A DNA stretch of 46,937 bases from Pseudomonadota bacterium (GTDB lineage: Bacteria; Desulfobacterota; Desulfuromonadia; Geobacterales; Pseudopelobacteraceae), in assembly GCA_019352135.1 (NCBI GenBank), contig JABBNX010000005.1, positions 12,727 through 59,663 of the forward strand, read 5' to 3'. Position numbers and translations under genes: made by a program. A model generated the notes under the pieces. The model ran no database searches, had not been told where the DNA came from, and saw only the letters and a list, made by a program, of their open reading frames with translations. Within the stretch, counting starts at the first letter, position 1, and the number at the start of each line of letters is the position of its first letter. This document shows, in pieces, positions 25,137 through 42,669 of the stretch.

Positions 25137-25162
25137 AACATAAAATTAGTATGGGATCTCAC

Positions 25163-27145
25163 ATGTCTTTGCATCAAAGCGTTTTCATAGCCGTATTTTC
25201 AGTTTCGGTATTTTTCTTTATATTCAGCTGCTACCAGCGTGTGCAACTTGTAGCCATCGGTGGGGCGGAGAATCGATTTGACAACCCGGGCGGCCGTCTG
25301 CTCGGTATGTTCGGCTCCGCCTTTGCCCAGAAACGTGTGCTGGCACGGCCGTATGGAGTCAATCACTTCCTGCTGTTCTGGGCATTCTTGTTTTTGCTGC
25401 TAGCTAATGGTGAGTTTATCCTGGAGGGGTTGATTCCCGGATTAAACTTTGCGACTATTCTGCCGCCGCCACTGCATCATGTTCTGGCACTGTTATTTGA
25501 TCTTGTTTCCCTGATCGCTTTGGGAGCTGTCGTCGTTGCGTTTGCCCGCCGTCTGTTTTTTCCGCCGGAATACCTGGGTAACGACTACACCAAACCTGCA
25601 AGTTTTGAAGCTCTGCTAATTTTGGCACTGATCGCCACCCTGATGATGGCTTTCTTTCTGCTAAACGCTGCCCACATCGCAGCGGGACAGACAGATACAT
25701 GGCGGCCGGTTTCAACGGCGCTGTCCATGCCGCTGCATGGGTTCTCTGCTTCAACACTGTCAGGTGTGATTCAAGTTTCATGGTGGGTGCATGCCCTGAT
25801 ACTGTTGCTGTTCATGAATCTGCTTCCCCGCAGCAAACATATGCATATTCTCACCGCTATTCCTAACTGCTACTTCCAGAATCTTGAAAAACCGAACACC
25901 CAGCCGAGGGAAATCTTTGAGAAGGGGGCCCGCTATGGCGTCAGCAGTGTCGATCACTTCAGCTGGAAGGATCTGCTTGATTCTCTGACCTGCACGGAGT
26001 GCGGTCGTTGCCAGGATCTCTGCCCGGCCCACAACACCGGTAAACCGCTTAATCCACGCCGCATTGTTCATGACATCAAACTCAACCTGATTAAAAACGG
26101 TTCTGCCATAAAAAACGGTAAAAGTAGCGAGTTGTCGTTGATTGGCGAAGCAGCAGATGGAACCATCTGCCATGAGGCTATCTGGTCCTGTACCACTTGC
26201 GGAGCCTGTACCTCGGTTTGCCCGGTGTTGATCGAGCAGATGCCAAAAATTATCAAGCTGCGCCGCCATCTGGTTCAGGAGCAAGCACTGTTTCCTGAAG
26301 AGCTGCTTAACCTGTTTGAAAACATGGAGCAGCGTAGCAATCCATGGGGCCTCGCCCCGTCAGAGCGGACCAAATGGAGCAGCCAGCTTGGTGACCGCTC
26401 CTTTAAACAAGGCGAAACAGAATATCTCTTTTTCGTTGGCTGCGCTGGTGCGTTCGACAGTCGCAACAAACATGTTACTGTTGCACTGGCCACCATTCTT
26501 GATAGCGCCGGGGTGTCTTGGGGGTTGCTGGGTAAGGATGAGCAGTGTTGCGGTGACAGCGTCCGGCGACTCGGAAATGAATTTGTTTTTGACAAAATGG
26601 CCAAAGAGAATGTTGCGCTTTTCAAGGAACGCGGCGTTTCCAAAATCGTTACCCAGTGTCCTCATTGTTTCAGCACCCTGAAGAACGACTACCGGCAGTA
26701 TGGTCTGGAAATAGAGGTACTACACCATTCTCAGTTGATAGCTGAATTGGTTGAGAGCGGCAAACTCAAATTTTCCAAACTGTCAGAGCAGGGCACGGTT
26801 GTCTTCCACGATTCATGTTACCTTGGCCGTCATAATGACGTCTACGAAGCACCACGAGCTGTGCTGACGGCGGCAACCGGTAAGTCACCGGGAGAATTCG
26901 ACCGCAACCATGAAAACGGTTACTGTTGCGGTGGCGGTGGCGGAAGAATGTGGATGGAAGAACAGACCGGTGACAGAATTAATCTGGAACGGGTCAAAGA
27001 AGCCATGCAGCTGCAACCCGATACACTCTGCGTCAGTTGTCCTTTTTGTATGACCATGATGGAGGACGGGCTCAAGGATTTGAGCGTTGCTGACAAATGC
27101 AGGGTTAAGGATATTGCAGAAGTTGTGGCGGAGGCGCTGCGATAG
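25163..27145 (+). CDS. Membrane-bound FeS oxidoreductase, second EMO-like paralog
   Basis: Same architecture as 17019-19004: CTECGRCQDLCPAHNTGKPLNPRRI, CTTCGACTSVCPVLIEQMPKI, CCGDSVRRLGNEF, CCGGGGGRMWMEE. Confidence 0.88.
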   Translation: MSLHQSVFIAVFSVSVFFFIFSCYQRVQLVAIGGAENRFDNPGGRLLGMFGSAFAQKRVLARPYGVNHFLLFWAFLFLLLANGEFILEGLIPGLNFATILPPPLHHVLALLFDLVSLIALGAVVVAFARRLFFPPEYLGNDYTKPASFEALLILALIATLMMAFFLLNAAHIAAGQTDTWRPVSTALSMPLHGFSASTLSGVIQVSWWVHALILLLFMNLLPRSKHMHILTAIPNCYFQNLEKPNTQPREIFEKGARYGVSSVDHFSWKDLLDSLTCTECGRCQDLCPAHNTGKPLNPRRIVHDIKLNLIKNGSAIKNGKSSELSLIGEAADGTICHEAIWSCTTCGACTSVCPVLIEQMPKIIKLRRHLVQEQALFPEELLNLFENMEQRSNPWGLAPSERTKWSSQLGDRSFKQGETEYLFFVGCAGAFDSRNKHVTVALATILDSAGVSWGLLGKDEQCCGDSVRRLGNEFVFDKMAKENVALFKERGVSKIVTQCPHCFSTLKNDYRQYGLEIEVLHHSQLIAELVESGKLKFSKLSEQGTVVFHDSCYLGRHNDVYEAPRAVLTAATGKSPGEFDRNHENGYCCGGGGGRMWMEEQTGDRINLERVKEAMQLQPDTLCVSCPFCMTMMEDGLKDLSVADKCRVKDIAEVVAEALR

Positions 27146-27235: not shown

Positions 27236-28765
27236 TTAGAAACTAAAGCGATTTACCATCCTATTCAGCTTTTCAACCTGTCCTTCAAGGTTTTTCGCAG
27301 CAGCTAGCGACTCTGCAGCTCCTACAGTATTTTTATCCGTTACCATACTTATTTGGGAAGCAGTTTTGCTAATCTGCTCAAGTCCTGTTGTCTGTTCATG
27401 AATAATCTCGGAAATATCATCAGCAAATGCACTGATAGCATTTGCTCCATATACTGCGTTTTCTAGTTGTTGGTCAATTTCTCGTGAAAGCTGTACTCCA
27501 TTCCTCGACAGAGTCGCTGCTGATTTAGTTATGGTGCTGGTCTTATTTGCAGCATCAGCAGACCTGGTTGCCAAACTGTGTATTTCGTCGGTCATAATTT
27601 TGAACTCGTTGCCTGCCCCTTCTACATGTGCCGCTTCAATTGCAGCATTTACACCAAGCAGATTTGAGAAGCGGGCAATAGTCATCAGGTTGGAGATTAG
27701 CTCGCTGAATTCTTCGCGTTGATCGTCCCCCATTTTTTTCTCAAATTCTTTCATTGCGCTGGCAGTTTCCATACATTGCTTGGACAATTTACGAATTTCT
27801 TGTGCAACGACACCAAAACCGCCTGCCGATATACGCATTCTGGCCGCTTTTTCTACAGCGCCCCCAGCTAGTGATCCAGTTTCTTTTGCTATTTCATCAA
27901 TTTCGTTAGCGATTGTTGTGGTCTTTTCCGCTGCTTCACTAATATCAGTCATAGAAGCAACCATACGGTTCATTGATTGTTTTGTTTTTGCAATGGCGTC
28001 AGTTGCCTGTTTTGCATTGGTATTAGCTTCCCGCGTTTTGACGGCACTGGCTCCAGCACTTTCAGATAATGTGGCAAGACTTATAGAGGTTTCATTCAAT
28101 TGAACACTTTGCTCTTCGGCTCCTTGTGACACAACAGAACTTATTCTGGTCATCTGTTGACCAACATATGAAATATGTCCAACAGTTTCTGAAACTTGTG
28201 AAATAGCATCGTGCAGTGATCCCGCTGTTGTATTCATAGCCTTTCTGATGGAAGCATGTTCGCCGCGATATTTACCGTTCATCCTGGCTTTTAGGTCATA
28301 TTTAGCCAGTCGATCCAATACGGCACCAGCTTCGGTTATCGGAGCTATAACAGCATCCAGAGTGGTGTTCATCCCACCAATCAGTTCTTTCCAGATGCCT
28401 TCATAATCCCAATCATTGCCTCGAGTTTTTAATTTACCGCCTCTAACACTGTTGATTAGGTGTTCAGTTTCACCATGCATGCCATAGAGAATCGCAAGCA
28501 ATGTATTGATGTTCTGTTTGATGTGGTTATATTCCCCTTTATAGTCGTCAATTACGAACGGGGGAAGTTTACCATGAGCAATCTCATCCAAAGCATTCCC
28601 GGCGAGCCGCATTGGCACAACCATGGCATCAATCATCTCATTTAACATTTGAACCATCTCAGCATCTTTACCCTGTAGAGCTTTACAGTCACCTCTAACA
28701 TCTAGTTGACCTGCAATCATCGCCCCTGATAGTTTTTTTATAATGCTGTGCGCCGTTGCATCCAT
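27236..28765 (-). CDS. Soluble methyl-accepting chemotaxis protein with HAMP-like repeats
   Basis: No long hydrophobic segment; HAMP-like repeats; tip-like IARFSNLLGVNAAIEAAHVEGAGNEFKIMTDEIHSLATRSADAA plus a second degenerate tip-like segment. Confidence 0.85.
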   Translation of the reverse strand: MDATAHSIIKKLSGAMIAGQLDVRGDCKALQGKDAEMVQMLNEMIDAMVVPMRLAGNALDEIAHGKLPPFVIDDYKGEYNHIKQNINTLLAILYGMHGETEHLINSVRGGKLKTRGNDWDYEGIWKELIGGMNTTLDAVIAPITEAGAVLDRLAKYDLKARMNGKYRGEHASIRKAMNTTAGSLHDAISQVSETVGHISYVGQQMTRISSVVSQGAEEQSVQLNETSISLATLSESAGASAVKTREANTNAKQATDAIAKTKQSMNRMVASMTDISEAAEKTTTIANEIDEIAKETGSLAGGAVEKAARMRISAGGFGVVAQEIRKLSKQCMETASAMKEFEKKMGDDQREEFSELISNLMTIARFSNLLGVNAAIEAAHVEGAGNEFKIMTDEIHSLATRSADAANKTSTITKSAATLSRNGVQLSREIDQQLENAVYGANAISAFADDISEIIHEQTTGLEQISKTASQISMVTDKNTVGAAESLAAAKNLEGQVEKLNRMVNRFSF

Positions 28766-29232
28766 TAGGTGCCCCCTTGCAATAATAAATCTAGTATTGT
28801 TTTCACCGCTGGGACAATGGCGTCACTAACAGCAGCGGTCATAAACTCTCTTGTTCTATTGAAACATATTCCTTCGATACCAACCAGCGTAATTCGCTTA
28901 GGCATATTTTGGGGATAAAGGGTTGCACCAATCTCAATAGTCTCGCGCAATCCAAGCCCGTGTGCAGAAATATCAGTACTATTGTATGGCAATGAGTCCC
29001 ATGGGACGACATGGATGGTTCCAGCAGGAGCGCCAAGTTGGACTGCATCCACAACAATAAGATCAGTCTCGCCTTCAAGCAGCGGCAGCATATCTATGCC
29101 GCCAACTCCAAGGTATTCCAATCGTGCAGAGCATCCAACAAGCTGCTGATAAATCTCAAACCCAATCGCATCATCAGCTATAAGCTCATTTCCTATACAG
29201 ACGACTATTGTACGAAGATCTGTAAGCTGCAT
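28765..29232 (-). CDS. Hydrogenase maturation protease (HyaD/HycI family)
   Basis: VVCIGNELIADDAIGFEIYQQL, DLIVVDAVQLGAPAGTIHV, AHGLGLRETIEIG. Confidence 0.9.
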   Translation of the reverse strand: MQLTDLRTIVVCIGNELIADDAIGFEIYQQLVGCSARLEYLGVGGIDMLPLLEGETDLIVVDAVQLGAPAGTIHVVPWDSLPYNSTDISAHGLGLRETIEIGATLYPQNMPKRITLVGIEGICFNRTREFMTAAVSDAIVPAVKTILDLLLQGGT

Positions 29233-29660
29233 TCATCACCGGAAGAAACAAGCGTTGATTTAACCGGTCTGCATAATAAACCATTGGTCATGCCATCGAA
29301 ATACGAGTGGAAAAGATGACAGAGAGCACCTCCTGTTTCTATTTTGCGTACTGCGCACATTTCTCTTATGATGCATGTCTTAAACTGCAAACTGTCACCT
29401 TCCAGCGTAAAGTCAAATCCAGCTTGCATCTGTGAACGCAGCACTTCAATAGTTTCTACAAGAGTCGGGTCAGTAAGGTGGACTGGCAGCTTCTCTGCGG
29501 TATCTCTGCCTGCTATCCTGCCAACTGGTGCCGTATTACCCCCCATGATGTTATCAATAGTACTGGCAAACGCATCCAGTAGAAATGCCACCTCGATCTT
29601 GGCTTTCTGGTAATCATCTGAAGTTAGTTCGATAACATACTTGGAATCGGTAGCACTCAT
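29205..29660 (-). CDS. V4R-like small protein, paralog of 32276-32770
   Basis: LQFKTCIIREMCAVRKIETGGALCHLFHSYFDGMTNGLL...SSGDECSLQIF, co-linear with 32276-32770 product. Confidence 0.6.
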   Translation of the reverse strand: MSATDSKYVIELTSDDYQKAKIEVAFLLDAFASTIDNIMGGNTAPVGRIAGRDTAEKLPVHLTDPTLVETIEVLRSQMQAGFDFTLEGDSLQFKTCIIREMCAVRKIETGGALCHLFHSYFDGMTNGLLCRPVKSTLVSSGDECSLQIFVQ

Positions 29661-29911
29661 AGGAATTTGTCCATCCTTTGGCAGAATTCGGCATCACGAT
29701 AAAAGTTCTTTACAGCATGGAAGTCCCCATGACTGATGGCATTAGATGGGCATATATAAGCACAAGAGAGGCAGGCGATACAGTCTTCAGCATGCCTAAC
29801 TACGCAGAGACGTTTTTCAGCATCTAATTCAAATACTTTTGTTGGACAGATATCAATACACAGTTCACATCCCCTGCATGACTGCTCGTGCACGTCTATC
29901 TCAACTGACAT
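29657..29911 (-). CDS. 2[4Fe-4S] ferredoxin
   Basis: CRGCELCIDICPTKVF and CIACLSCAYICPSNAI. Confidence 0.9.
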   Translation of the reverse strand: MSVEIDVHEQSCRGCELCIDICPTKVFELDAEKRLCVVRHAEDCIACLSCAYICPSNAISHGDFHAVKNFYRDAEFCQRMDKFL

Positions 29912-29916
29912 GGTAA

Positions 29917-31332
29917 TTACCTCCGAATGGTTCTAACGGTTTCACCGCCACGAGTAATAGCTATTTCCAATGGCATACGGCCAACGGCGTGTGTTGCACA
30001 CGAAAGGCATGGGTCATAGCAGCGGATACTGAATTCGACTGCATTCAGCAAGGCTGTCTCGTTTGGTTTGTCGATGATGTGAGATTGTGCTGCCTGCTCA
30101 ATCGAGCGATTTATGATGGCGTAGTTCTGTTGAGTCGCCACAATCAGGTTTGCGGCACGAACGATGCCTTTTTCGTCGATCTCGTAGTCATGAATCAGAG
30201 TGCCACGGGGAGCTTCCGAATGACCGACACCACGACCACCTTTGAATTTGACCGGAACTCTGGTCTCACCCCACACCGCAGGATCATTAAGAATATTGTC
30301 GGAACGTTCGATAGCCCAGATCATCTCAACCAGCTTTGCGTAGGTCTGGAACACGGTCAGATGACAGGGATACCCACCCAGCTTGGTAAATTCAGCATAT
30401 TCCGCATCAGCCAATTCAGTGCCAAACTGGCGCATCGCGTTCATTCTTGCCATTGGTCCGACGCGGTATTCATGGAGCTCTCCATCGAAATTGAAATGGA
30501 CTTTCTTCATATACGACCACTCGACTACGCTCTCAACCATGTACTTGTCATAATCTTCAACAGGGAATTCAATCTTGATGTTGCCATCTTTGTCGACGGC
30601 TCGCAGATTCCCTTCTATTAGTGAGACACGGTCGTCCTTTACTGTCCCTACAGCCCACGACGGCGCAATCCAATCGTTCAGCATGGCAGGGTGTTTATCC
30701 AATGCGTTCAGGAGCAATCCTTTAACCGCAGGAGTAACTACTGGTAACATAGCCTTGGCTTCATCCACCAGAGCTTGAATTATTTTCTTCTTCTCCTGGT
30801 CAAGAACAAATGTGATCCCACCGGCTACCGATGTTACCGGATGGGTACCACGCCCCCCAACGATTTCGTTAATTTTCTGACCTATTGTACGAAGACGTAA
30901 AGCTACTTTAGCCAGTTCGGGATTTGCCTGCACAATTCCCACTACATTTCTGATTGCAGGGTCGGCATCAAGTCCGAGTACCAGATCAGGTCCTTGGAGA
31001 ACAAAAATTGAAAGGCTGTGTGAATGAATGATATGCCCCATATACATTAGTTCGCGGAGAAGCATTGTAGCGGGCGGAGATTTAACGCCAGCAGCGTAGT
31101 CCAATGCATTTGACGCGGCAATGTGATGAGCCGTTGGACAGACCCCGCAGATCCGTGCCGTAATGTGTGGCATACGATCAGCTTCCATGCCTATGAGGAT
31201 TTTTTCGAAGCCACGAAGTTCGTTGACAACAAGTCCGGCATTTTCAAGTTTCCCGTCATCGTCAAGGTTGATGAATACCTTGGCATGACCTTCGATTCTT
31301 GTAACAGGATCTATTTTAATGGTCTTGTTCAT
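29917..31332 (-). CDS. NiFe hydrogenase large subunit, group 3 (MvhA/HoxH-like)
   Basis: L1 motif ARICGVCPTAHH, L2 motif DPCLSCATH followed by a cleavable-looking C-terminal extension AVGRMPLEIAITRGGETVRTIRR. Confidence 0.93.
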   Translation of the reverse strand: MNKTIKIDPVTRIEGHAKVFINLDDDGKLENAGLVVNELRGFEKILIGMEADRMPHITARICGVCPTAHHIAASNALDYAAGVKSPPATMLLRELMYMGHIIHSHSLSIFVLQGPDLVLGLDADPAIRNVVGIVQANPELAKVALRLRTIGQKINEIVGGRGTHPVTSVAGGITFVLDQEKKKIIQALVDEAKAMLPVVTPAVKGLLLNALDKHPAMLNDWIAPSWAVGTVKDDRVSLIEGNLRAVDKDGNIKIEFPVEDYDKYMVESVVEWSYMKKVHFNFDGELHEYRVGPMARMNAMRQFGTELADAEYAEFTKLGGYPCHLTVFQTYAKLVEMIWAIERSDNILNDPAVWGETRVPVKFKGGRGVGHSEAPRGTLIHDYEIDEKGIVRAANLIVATQQNYAIINRSIEQAAQSHIIDKPNETALLNAVEFSIRCYDPCLSCATHAVGRMPLEIAITRGGETVRTIRR

Positions 31333-32279
31333 AAGCTCTCTCCTGCTTCGTAGTCCGCATTCTCATCCTCAATCCATTTTTGGATATGGAAAGTTGGCTT
31401 GCCACCAATCATTGAGGTAGCCATAGTGTAGGAATAATGGGATTTGGAGGCTTTCTCCAATGAGTCTATAATGACGTTACGATCAATTTTAGTCAGACGC
31501 GACATTCGGTCGGCAATTTCCGTTCTGATATCCCGGTTCGGTTCAGTGAGTATCTGCATTGTTGCCCCGGCGCAGCCAGTACAGGGGACTCCGTTGGCCG
31601 GGCAAGGGGCCAGGCACCGATCCATGGTTACAGATCCCATGCATGTGTACCCTTGGCTCAAAAAGCACTGTTCATTATTTGGTATTCCTTCGGAATTTGA
31701 TTTGATCGCGTCAACATCTGTTTTTTCCATCTTCCGTTTGCATTTCGCGCAGACCGTTCGCTTGTTAACCTCTGGTGCCCGTCCTTCAACAAGAGATGTT
31801 AAAGCTTCAAAGATGAACGCAGGATGTGGAGGGCAACCTGGCAAATAAAGATCTACGTCAATTACTGCATCAATAGGTTTTACAACCGACTCTAAAGGAG
31901 AGATCTCTTTACTTGGGGGATGCGCAGATATGGTCGTCTTGTTTTCAAGGTATACCGCCTTGCCGATTTCTGCTGGAGTGTGAATATTGCCAGCTCCCGC
32001 CGGACCACCAAATACGGCGCAAGATCCCCAGGCAATCACAATATCGCAAGATTTTCGCATTTCAATTGCGGCATGGCGATCATGCTCATTGCGAATAGCA
32101 CCAGATACCAGGCCTACAGTGGCATGCGGGTAATCCTTTATGTCTGTTAGAACTGGACATCTTTGGATTTTAACGGCTTGCAGGACATTCAGAATTTTTT
32201 CGTGAAGGTCAACAATTGCAATATGGCAACCGGAGCAATCGCTTAGCCATTCCGTATTGATGGTGACTTCATTACTCAT
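31329..32279 (-). CDS. NiFe hydrogenase small subunit, group 3 (MvhG/HoxY-like)
   Basis: WLSDCSGCHIAIVDLHEKIL, IAWGSCAVFGGPAGAGN, LPGCPPHPAFIFEAL, CLAPCPANGVPCTGCAGA. Confidence 0.92.
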   Translation of the reverse strand: MSNEVTINTEWLSDCSGCHIAIVDLHEKILNVLQAVKIQRCPVLTDIKDYPHATVGLVSGAIRNEHDRHAAIEMRKSCDIVIAWGSCAVFGGPAGAGNIHTPAEIGKAVYLENKTTISAHPPSKEISPLESVVKPIDAVIDVDLYLPGCPPHPAFIFEALTSLVEGRAPEVNKRTVCAKCKRKMEKTDVDAIKSNSEGIPNNEQCFLSQGYTCMGSVTMDRCLAPCPANGVPCTGCAGATMQILTEPNRDIRTEIADRMSRLTKIDRNVIIDSLEKASKSHYSYTMATSMIGGKPTFHIQKWIEDENADYEAGESL

Positions 32280-32770
32280 GGCACCCTCCTGATAATCAGT
32301 TTTTTAAAGCAGGCGTTCTCACCGGCGTGGATAATTTCCAGCGATGACTCTCGGGCCATGATATTTTGCAACGCTCCTGCAAAGAAGCCATACATCATGT
32401 TGCAGAGCGATCCTTTCTGTGTGTGACCAAATCGGAACAATGATTGACGGATCATACAATCCCGGAAAACCAGCATTACTTCGGTTCCTTCATCACTTTC
32501 CTTTATGACTGTGTCCTGATCATGGGTTTTAAACGTCTCGAATAGCCAGAGGTAGTCATTTTGTTCAAGGACGTCTCTGGTCGAATTTAAAGCCTGTTCG
32601 ATATCATCGGTATGCGCGATACCTACTGATAATTTCTTCCCAAGGTTAACTCCCGCAAGATATGAAATACTGTTGGCAGATTCACCTATGGCTTGTTCGG
32701 TTCCAGATGCAATGGCCCCCAGAAACACCATAGCATCTTGCAGTGCGAGTCTTTGCTGACTTGTCTCCAT
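32276..32770 (-). CDS. V4R-like small protein, paralog of 29205-29660
   Basis: LVFRDCMIRQSLFRFGHTQKGSLCNMMYGFFAGALQNIM...HAGENACFKKLIIRR. Confidence 0.6.
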   Translation of the reverse strand: METSQQRLALQDAMVFLGAIASGTEQAIGESANSISYLAGVNLGKKLSVGIAHTDDIEQALNSTRDVLEQNDYLWLFETFKTHDQDTVIKESDEGTEVMLVFRDCMIRQSLFRFGHTQKGSLCNMMYGFFAGALQNIMARESSLEIIHAGENACFKKLIIRRVP

Positions 32771-32779
32771 TGACCACTC

Positions 32780-33205
32780 CTATACTAAATGTTCAAGATT
32801 TAAAAATATAACCAGCCTTTCATCAATCTGGATAACGCCACCGATCCATGATTGAGCTGTTGTTTCGACCGGTGGAGGTAGGATATCGCTCAGCTTTATG
32901 CGAATGACATCTGAAATCTCGTCGATGATAAACCCGGTCAGTTCACCCTTGAGATCCATCACTGCAATACAGCGGGTACTTTCATCACCAAGGTCAGAAA
33001 AGCCGAAACAGTTGCGTAGGGATATGATGGGAACAATGGAGCCACGAAGATTGATGATCCCTTTAATGTGTGGTGGAGAGTTGGCTGTTTTGGATATATC
33101 AACCATACCGCTTATTTCTCTGACCCGCATTACATCGATGGCATATTCTTGACCGTACAGGAAGAATGTTACTAGTTGGATATCGGCATTCGTTGACAAT
33201 TCCAC
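32780..33205 (-). CDS. CheW-type chemotaxis adaptor
   Basis: TFFLYGQEYAIDVMRVREI, PPHIKGIINLRGSIVPIISLRNCFG, GFIIDEISDVIRI. Confidence 0.93.
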   Translation of the reverse strand: MELSTNADIQLVTFFLYGQEYAIDVMRVREISGMVDISKTANSPPHIKGIINLRGSIVPIISLRNCFGFSDLGDESTRCIAVMDLKGELTGFIIDEISDVIRIKLSDILPPPVETTAQSWIGGVIQIDERLVIFLNLEHLV

Positions 33206-40229: not shown

Positions 40230-40465
40230 AACCATTTTTCATGCCGATTGTCTTCTGCTGTTTATCTTGGTTCACAAACACAATTTTAGCATGTCAATCA
40301 CCTCTGTCAATCTCCTCTTGACAAGTGGCATGCCTATTGCCACTATGTGATGCTAATTGCAATTTATTATGAAGTTAATATCAACGTCCCTGAACATGGT
40401 CGTTTGATGGCTCAATCGGCATCAATTGAGTATTCCGATTGGTCGTTCTGTTGCACCGCTGAATT
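40230..40465. repeat. Direct repeat, copy 2: truncated tetR 5' end plus promoter region
   Basis: See copy 1; retains about the first 17 tetR codons (antisense) and the AGTGGCA-N7-TGCCACT operator at 40324-40344. Confidence 0.8.
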
Positions 40466-40505
40466 AGCATAACAACCAACGTATGGATAGCCATGAATTA
40501 ATCGG

Positions 40506-42669
40506 ATGAATTGGATTTGCCCTATGGATTATGCAAAGACACCTCTCCTGAGCCAATGGGGTGAGCTCTATGTACCGCACGAGTCTGATATTGACGGGAT
40601 CCGGGATCTTCAGGGCAAAACGGTAGCCGTAATGAAGGGGGACTTTAATGCTGCAGGTCTCATGGATCTGGCCCAAAAAATCGGCGTCAGTTGCCGGTAT
40701 GTAGAAGTTCCCGGCTTTGAAGAGGTATTTAAGGATGTAGCAGAAAAAAAATTCGATGCCGGCGTAGTTAGCAACGTCTTTGGCGTGCCGAAGCAGCATG
40801 AATATCGCCTTCGCCCCACCGGTATCGTGTTCAGCCCGTTTGATGTTTTCTTTACTGTTGCGAAGGGAAAGAATCAGGATCTGCTGGCACTCCTGGACGG
40901 TTATCTGGACAAATGGCGACACCAGAAGGATTCGGTCTACAACAGCACTCGCCAGAAATGGTCTCACGGCAGCAACGGTACACTGAATGTCATTCCGCGC
41001 TGGGTGATAACGTCAACCGTTGTGCTTGCCGCGCTGGGTGCTTGGCGCCCTTGTCTTTATCCTGCTGCTCAAGAGACAGGTGCGCCGCGCCACGGAGGAT
41101 ATCAGGCAACAGGAAGAAGGTTTGCGGAAAAGTTCGGCAATGGTTAAGCTTTTGCTGGATTCCACGGCAGAGGCAATCTATGGTCTGGACACTGACGGTA
41201 ATTGTACCTTTTGCAATGCCGCCTGCCTCAGGATGTTGGGGTACGAACAGCCGGAGCAATTGCTGGGCAGAAACATCCATGAACTTATTCATCACACTCA
41301 TGGCGACGGCACATCGTCTGAAGTCGGCGAGTGCCTCATTGCAGCGGCTTTGCGCCAGGGTGAGGAGATACACGCGGATGACGAGGTGCTGTGGCGGGCT
41401 GATGGCACCAGTTTTGCGTCTGAATACTGGGCGCATCCCGTGCGCCGGGATGGGAAGATCATCGGGTCGGTTGTGACGTTTCTGGATATCACTGAACGGA
41501 AGCGGATGGAAGAGGCCCAGAACTTCATCTTTCAGTGCGGGCTCCGCTATGCCGGAGAAGATTTTTTCGAGTCGTTGGCAATGTTCCTGGCTCAGAGCCT
41601 TGACATGGACTATGTATGTATTGACAGCCTTCATGGCGACGGTCTGAACGCACAGACAGTGGCGATCTATTATGATGGCAAGTTTGAGGACAATGTGCAG
41701 TATGCCCTCAAAGACACACCCTGCGGTGATGTGGTTGGAAATACTATCTGCTGTTTTCAGCAGGGCGTCCGTAATTTGTTCCCTCAGGACACGGCGCTTC
41801 AGGAAATGCTGGCCGAAAGCTATGTTGGTACCACCTTGTGGAGTTTTGACGGGAAACCGATCGGCCTGATCGCGGTTATCGGGCGACAAACATTAAAAGA
41901 CCCCCGTCAGGCTGAAGCTGTGCTGAAACTGGTATCGGTGCGTGCGGCCGGTGAACTGGAACGCAAGCAGGCGGAAAAAAAACTTCAGGATAAAAACAGA
42001 GAGTTGGAGCGTTTCACCTACACCGTTTCACACGATCTGAAGAGTCCGCTGATAACTATCCAGAGTTATGCCGGTATGATCAGACAGGATATGGAGACCG
42101 GAAATCACGAACGTGCCAAGGGTGACATAAAGAGGATTGAGGATGCGGCCGAAAAGATGACTAATCTTCTCAACGACCTCCTGGAGCTTTCCCGCATCGG
42201 CAAGCAGATGAACCCAACGTCTTTGGTTGATATGAGACTCCTGGTAACCAATGTCCTGTCCCAGTTGGTCGGGCCTCTCAAGCAGCGACTGGTGGAGGTT
42301 GTGGTGCAACCAGACCTTCCTGCTGTTTACGGCGATCATCGCCGCATTGCCGAGGCGTTGCAGAACCTGGTGGAAAACGCCGTAAAATATATGGGCGATC
42401 AACCTGTGCCACGTGTTGAGATCGGCTGCCGACAAAACGATACCGAGGTGGTGTTTTTTGTCGGTGATAACGGCCAAGGCATTGACCTGCGCCACCACGA
42501 AGATATCTTTGGCCTGTTCAACAAGTTGGATGCCAAAAGCGAAGGTACAGGTGTCGGTCTGACGCTGGTAAAACGGATCATAGAACTGCATGGCGGCAGG
42601 GTCTGGGTTGAGTCGGAAGGGGGCGGGATGGGGAGCAGGTTCTGCTTTACGTTACCATTGCATGCCTGA
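40506..42669 (+). pseudogene. 5'-truncated, frameshifted sensor histidine kinase (substrate-binding-protein-like sensor, TM, PAS, GAF, HisKA, HATPase)
   Basis: ORF 40506-41147 gives a partial SBP-like sensor (GIRDLQGKTVAVMKGD...FDAGVVSNVFG) to TM start VLAALGA; it continues in the +1 frame from 41020 (GALVFILLLKRQVRR...FTYTVSHDLKSPLITIQSYAG). One-base change near 41040. Confidence 0.7.

Follow-up and report, generated by a model that had tools for sequence, protein, structure and literature searches.

A conserved [NiFe] hydrogenase operon with two V4R-type proteins and a soluble chemoreceptor: a candidate H2/redox sensory module

What does a [NiFe] hydrogenase do in an operon that also encodes a chemotaxis receptor? 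The question is raised by positions 27236-33205 of the window (the whole 46,937-nucleotide stretch of DNA that was analysed), where the ORF calls place eight minus-strand genes that are packed tightly or overlap. In order, these are cheW (32780..33205), encoding a 141-aa CheW-like adaptor (Pfam CheW, 112 bits); V4Ra (32276..32770), a 164-aa V4R/Bet3-fold protein; hydS (31329..32279), a 316-aa MvhG-like hydrogenase small subunit; hydL (29917..31332), a 471-aa MvhA/HydL-like large subunit; a gene for an 84-aa 2[4Fe-4S] ferredoxin (29657..29911; Pfam Fer4/Fer4_7); V4Rb (29205..29660), a 151-aa V4R-related protein; a gene for a 155-aa maturation protease (28765..29232; Pfam HycI, 52.6 bits; NCBIfam TIGR00072, 92 bits, above cut-off); and a gene for a 509-aa soluble methyl-accepting chemotaxis protein (MCP; 27236..28765) with a poly-HAMP input region and a signalling domain. 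The cheW gene starts with GTG, with AGGAGG just ahead of it, and is set apart from V4Ra by 9 bp, the largest gap in the operon. Further along, V4Ra/hydS and hydS/hydL overlap by 4 bp each, hydL and the ferredoxin gene are 5 bp apart, and the remaining overlaps are 4 bp (ferredoxin/V4Rb), 28 bp (V4Rb/protease) and 1 bp (protease/MCP). Pfam and NCBIfam matches to CheW, both [NiFe] subunits, the 2[4Fe-4S] ferredoxin, a HycI-type protease, HAMP_2 (two stretches) and MCPsignal agree with the gene identities proposed in the first-pass annotation, all of which correspond to ORFs. Scans of the operon region for sigma-70 promoters and terminators, and of the window for sigma-54-like patterns, gave no more matches than in shuffled sequence. 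Elsewhere in the window (40464-41889), a binding-protein-like gene and a histidine kinase ORF overlap in different frames in the ORF list, which suggests a frameshift or a fragmented sensor gene.

The arrangement recurs well beyond this genome. Counting hydL matches at an identity of at least 68% (the next values drop to 46%), we found the hydrogenase in 32 of 141 genomes of the order, all of which also carry the MCP; the only further genome with the MCP is G137, with the gene at the end of a contig, which brings the number to 33. The order V4Ra-hydS-hydL-ferredoxin-V4Rb-protease-MCP is kept in every locus uncut by contig ends, the G107 and G088 loci being truncated or split between contigs, and both order and content hold in three families of this order as well as in loci attributed to other phyla. 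Examples include records of Trichlorobacter thiogenes, Geomonas paludis, Geomonas azotofigens, and Geobacter sp. OR-1. A flanking FeS gene (25151-27145) has no tblastn match in any of these loci, which makes the MCP the boundary of the conserved block. Because gene order is kept in all checkable loci while this neighbour is absent, the block goes beyond chance; the genetic unit is real and strongly conserved. A search for its exact gene order in other genomes, which the first-pass annotation had advised, thus finds seven genes constant wherever contigs permit, without cheW.

The hydrogenase and the receptor also share a history. A tree of 79 large subunits, built by quick search, places the MCP-linked hydrogenases, which come from several phyla, in one clade (SH-aLRT 99) of 37 rows plus L114, whose locus is cut at a contig end; no loss of the MCP is seen within this clade. 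Distances among the MCPs correlate with those among the large subunits at r = 0.94, against 0.92 for small and large subunits, values that partly reflect shared descent. Among 15 sampled genomes whose V4R-hydrogenase has no linked MCP, 14 are without relatives of the MCP described here (E <= 1e-30). A survey of 395 genomes of the phylum detected the MCP in 4 and V4Ra in 6, these 4 included, with at most three MCP and nine V4Ra candidates scored per genome. The cheW gene follows another pattern: it is found in 18 loci (window included) and absent from 13 that carry the MCP, and the rows bearing it are confined to one subclade nested within the MCP-linked clade. Judged by this distribution, CheW is a later-gained, partial member, and we dropped it as a candidate core part. 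The earlier proposal that the hydrogenase is read by the soluble MCP through CheW therefore holds in part: conservation, single origin and co-variation strongly support hydrogenase-MCP coupling, but CheW does not define the unit.

The receptor itself is assigned by HAMP_2 and MCPsignal matches (the latter 88 bits, against a cut-off of 34.6), an AF2 model, and its conserved adjacency. Since no hydropathy peak exceeds 1.51 in any of the 37 MCPs, a membrane helix is not expected. The input part is poly-HAMP without a recognised ligand-binding domain, and the HAMP region is conserved at 0.74-0.78, like the tip. The signalling domain contains two tip-like segments, at about residues 285-330 and 353-410, and the AF2 model, of modest confidence (mean pLDDT 72), places a single turn between them at 343-346. 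Residues 285-410 have the appearance of a tandem-duplicated tip, the first copy better preserved in its C-terminal half and the second in its N-terminal half; both copies are less decayed in distant homologues such as that of L143. CheA and flagellin are encoded in 14 of the 14 genomes tested.

Sequence features of the enzyme indicate an intact active site and Mvh-like Fe-S ligands, as in a group-3-type hydrogenase. The two CxxC nickel-iron ligand pairs of hydL (C62/C65 and C442/C445) and H448 are invariant in the in-group sequences, 12 cysteines of hydS are invariant across 72 homologues, and hydL carries a C-terminal extension of 23 residues past H448. The closest solved structures are MvhG 5odc_E for the small subunit (E 3e-72) and 7t2r_D and MvhA 5odc_F for the large subunit, which also matches Pfam NiFeSe_Hases. 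VhuA and VhuG are the best NCBIfam matches (VhuG, 248 bits), both below curated cut-offs. The MvhG-type small subunit, the two CxxC pairs and these best matches are shared with the HdrA-linked group 3c Mvh/Vhu enzymes; the operon differs from them in lacking HdrA and MvhD and having the V4R pair and the MCP instead. In agreement with the first-pass annotation, the ORF list contains no HdrA, MvhD, or HoxF/HoxU diaphorase in the operon or the window.

H2 sensing by a hydrogenase coupled to a kinase pathway is known as a concept from the [NiFe] group 2b regulatory hydrogenases (HupUV/HoxBC with HoxJ). These have neither a C-terminal extension nor a protease, whereas the enzyme described here keeps both the extension and an adjoining protease gene and is partnered by an MCP, not a histidine kinase; it is closest to group 3 enzymes, the tree holding no group 2 reference. 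HydDB lists [NiFe] group 2b as kinase-linked, group 2c as cyclase-linked, and [FeFe] group C2 as "chemotactic (putative)" (PMC5037454). The last shares the MCP linkage, its hydrogenase being proposed to sense H2 through MCPs, but our enzyme is [NiFe] (NiFeSe_Hases family), not of the H-cluster type, and is accompanied by V4R adaptors.

The same genome encodes a further group-3c-type hydrogenase, accompanied by HdrA- and MvhD-like genes, on contig C181. There (L107:1-11799), it lies about 60 bp downstream of an MCP-CheB-CheR-CheA-response regulator cluster; a similar arrangement occurs in four other genomes (L193, L195, L199, and L200, the last with an extra gene between), while the HdrA/MvhD-type loci L188, L189, L190, and L197 have no che genes. 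In G117 (L191:10890-11873), a 327-aa MCP-domain protein is encoded about 20 bp upstream of a group-3c-type small subunit, and in G077 (L194:10199-14876), the group-3c-type small and large subunits are separated by genes for a GGDEF response regulator and a hybrid histidine kinase.

A link between chemotaxis genes and such a hydrogenase has in part been noted before, as the first-pass annotation had allowed. Passages of two proteomics papers name an MCP, MvhV, in the Mvh cluster GSU2416-2423 of Geobacter sulfurreducens; they cite a suggested role of this hydrogenase in H2 production and give no sensing role for MvhV (PMC7894505, PMC8691401). GSU2416-2423 spans eight locus tags in a row, with the two subunits at GSU2418/2419 and an MCP in the cluster, and is probably the same operon type as ours, as judged by locus-tag order. 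We also considered that the G. sulfurreducens Mvh is an HdrA/MvhD-type hydrogenase, which fits less well: no MCP was detected next to that enzyme in the homologous loci L188, L189, L190, and L197, although L191 has one. On this ground, the window-type operon is the better, if unproven, match. A table in a 2025 neighbourhood survey records an MCP cluster in the vicinity of [NiFe] hydrogenases.

The two remaining proteins, V4Ra and V4Rb, have no Pfam match individually in the window. Across family members, Pfam V4R matches are weak and below cut-off (best E-values 0.05 and 0.013), V4Rb members also matching ATC_hydrolase, and the assignment therefore rests on fold and profile. Foldseek relates the AF2 model of V4Ra (pLDDT 84) to Bet3, YslB, MopR/PoxR, and the V4R protein MJ_1460, and profile comparison relates V4Rb to V4Ra (hhalign, 96%), which bears out the V4R-like reading of the first-pass annotation. 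An alignment of 72 V4Ra sequences showed that C105, H116, C123, and C154 are invariant; V4Rb conserves C96, C102, C114, and C144, with C102 present in 97%. These cysteines fit a redox or metal role, as judged from their conservation. A precedent for redox-responsive V4R cysteines is MsvR, a V4R regulator of methanogens whose conserved cysteines affect its redox switch (PMC3729527); MsvR is a DNA-binding protein, and the comparison with V4Ra and V4Rb is at the level of the domain, not of single cysteine positions. Among the titles returned by a literature text search, none names a link between V4R and hydrogenase.

Scanning named genomes with the V4Ra alignment recovered 80 loci, some of the distant ones from MAGs in which misbinning is possible. 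By HMM annotation, nearly all of these loci carry the core module to the extent that flanks permit, and V4Ra adjoins hydrogenase genes in every annotated locus where flanks allow the check. The neighbours vary: many loci have the MCP, others Roadblock/LC7 genes, and some histidine kinase and response regulator genes. Pfam searches on sampled loci confirmed Robl_LC7, a response regulator-DUF4388-Roadblock protein, and histidine kinases, and showed an Arf-like GTPase adjoining the Roadblock genes in L168. In this Aegiribacteria MAG (L168:4409-7943), two Roadblock genes, the Arf-like GTPase, a DUF4388 gene, and a DnaA-like ATPase gene precede the V4R-hydrogenase module. The V4R pair thus stays with the hydrogenase even without the MCP, where other signalling genes sit nearby.

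Taken together, we consider it probable (roughly 0.68) that the operon encodes a V4R-coupled [NiFe] H2/redox sensory module, joined here to a soluble poly-HAMP receptor and CheA. The two V4R-type proteins are likely its coupling elements, and the joint inheritance of hydrogenase, V4R adaptors and soluble MCP suggests a built-in H2 sensor that may steer the cell or its gene activity. In the proposed mechanism, H2 would reduce the hydrogenase, and electrons would travel from the small subunit through the ferredoxin to the two V4R proteins, with their cysteine/metal site serving as a redox switch. The pair may then dock on the HAMP input region of the MCP, and the receptor would alter CheA activity, through the operon's own CheW in the subclade that has it and through other CheW proteins in the remaining lineages. 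The output would probably be H2 or redox taxis, possibly gene regulation, and in related lineages, the same module is apparently attached to other outputs.

The alternative that fares best, though we think it unlikely, is that the hydrogenase is metabolic and exchanges electrons between H2 and ferredoxin, the V4R proteins being accessory or assembly subunits and the MCP a co-transcribed energy-taxis receptor that responds to its activity or to an unrelated signal. The active site, processing protease and ferredoxin are indeed complete, and the role in H2 production suggested for the G. sulfurreducens Mvh in the passages cited above points the same way. So does the Desulfobulbales clade, where scoring of the stretch covered gave neither MCP nor Roadblock for 12 of 15 tree rows; Roadblock counted wherever it occurred in the fetched flank, beyond the operon too, and histidine kinase genes were left out. 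One Desulfobulbales locus (L155) has HtpG and PCMT genes upstream of the module, and ORFs of like size precede several others. Against a metabolic role, the operon has no HdrA, MvhD, or NAD(P) subunit, this specific MCP was never seen lost within its clade, and different signalling genes lie near the module in other lineages.

Considerably less probable is that a small molecule or metal is the signal for the V4R pair, in the manner of the MopR/PoxR sensor domains, with the hydrogenase supplying or removing electrons, so that the stimulus is not H2. The resemblance of the V4R fold to phenol sensors and the conserved Cys/His site in both V4R proteins would suit such a role, yet V4Ra adjoins hydrogenase genes in the annotated loci wherever this is checkable, and in more distant lineages, the ferredoxin and V4Rb are a single fused protein, which ties V4Rb to electron transfer. 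Incidental adjacency of unrelated genes without functional coupling, for which only the presence of CheW in part of the clade speaks, is very improbable given an order and content kept across three families and other phyla, a single supported clade, co-varying distances, and no genome found with this MCP or this hydrogenase alone.

The sensory reading may extend to a wider family, a proposal that we rate as evenly balanced. In such a V4R-coupled [NiFe] sensory family, a fixed core (V4Ra, small and large subunits, ferredoxin, V4Rb, and protease) would turn the H2/redox state into a conformational signal, and the outputs would be exchangeable: an MCP with or without CheW, a histidine kinase with a response regulator, or Roadblock proteins with an Arf-like GTPase.

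If the sensory module is real, it would be the [NiFe] equivalent of the [FeFe] hydrogenases listed as putatively chemotactic, with V4R-fold proteins as a candidate link by which H2 oxidation could reach the receptor. H2 taxis becomes testable in the named strains that bear the operon, and the finding is relevant to the ways in which iron-reducing bacteria might locate partners that produce H2.
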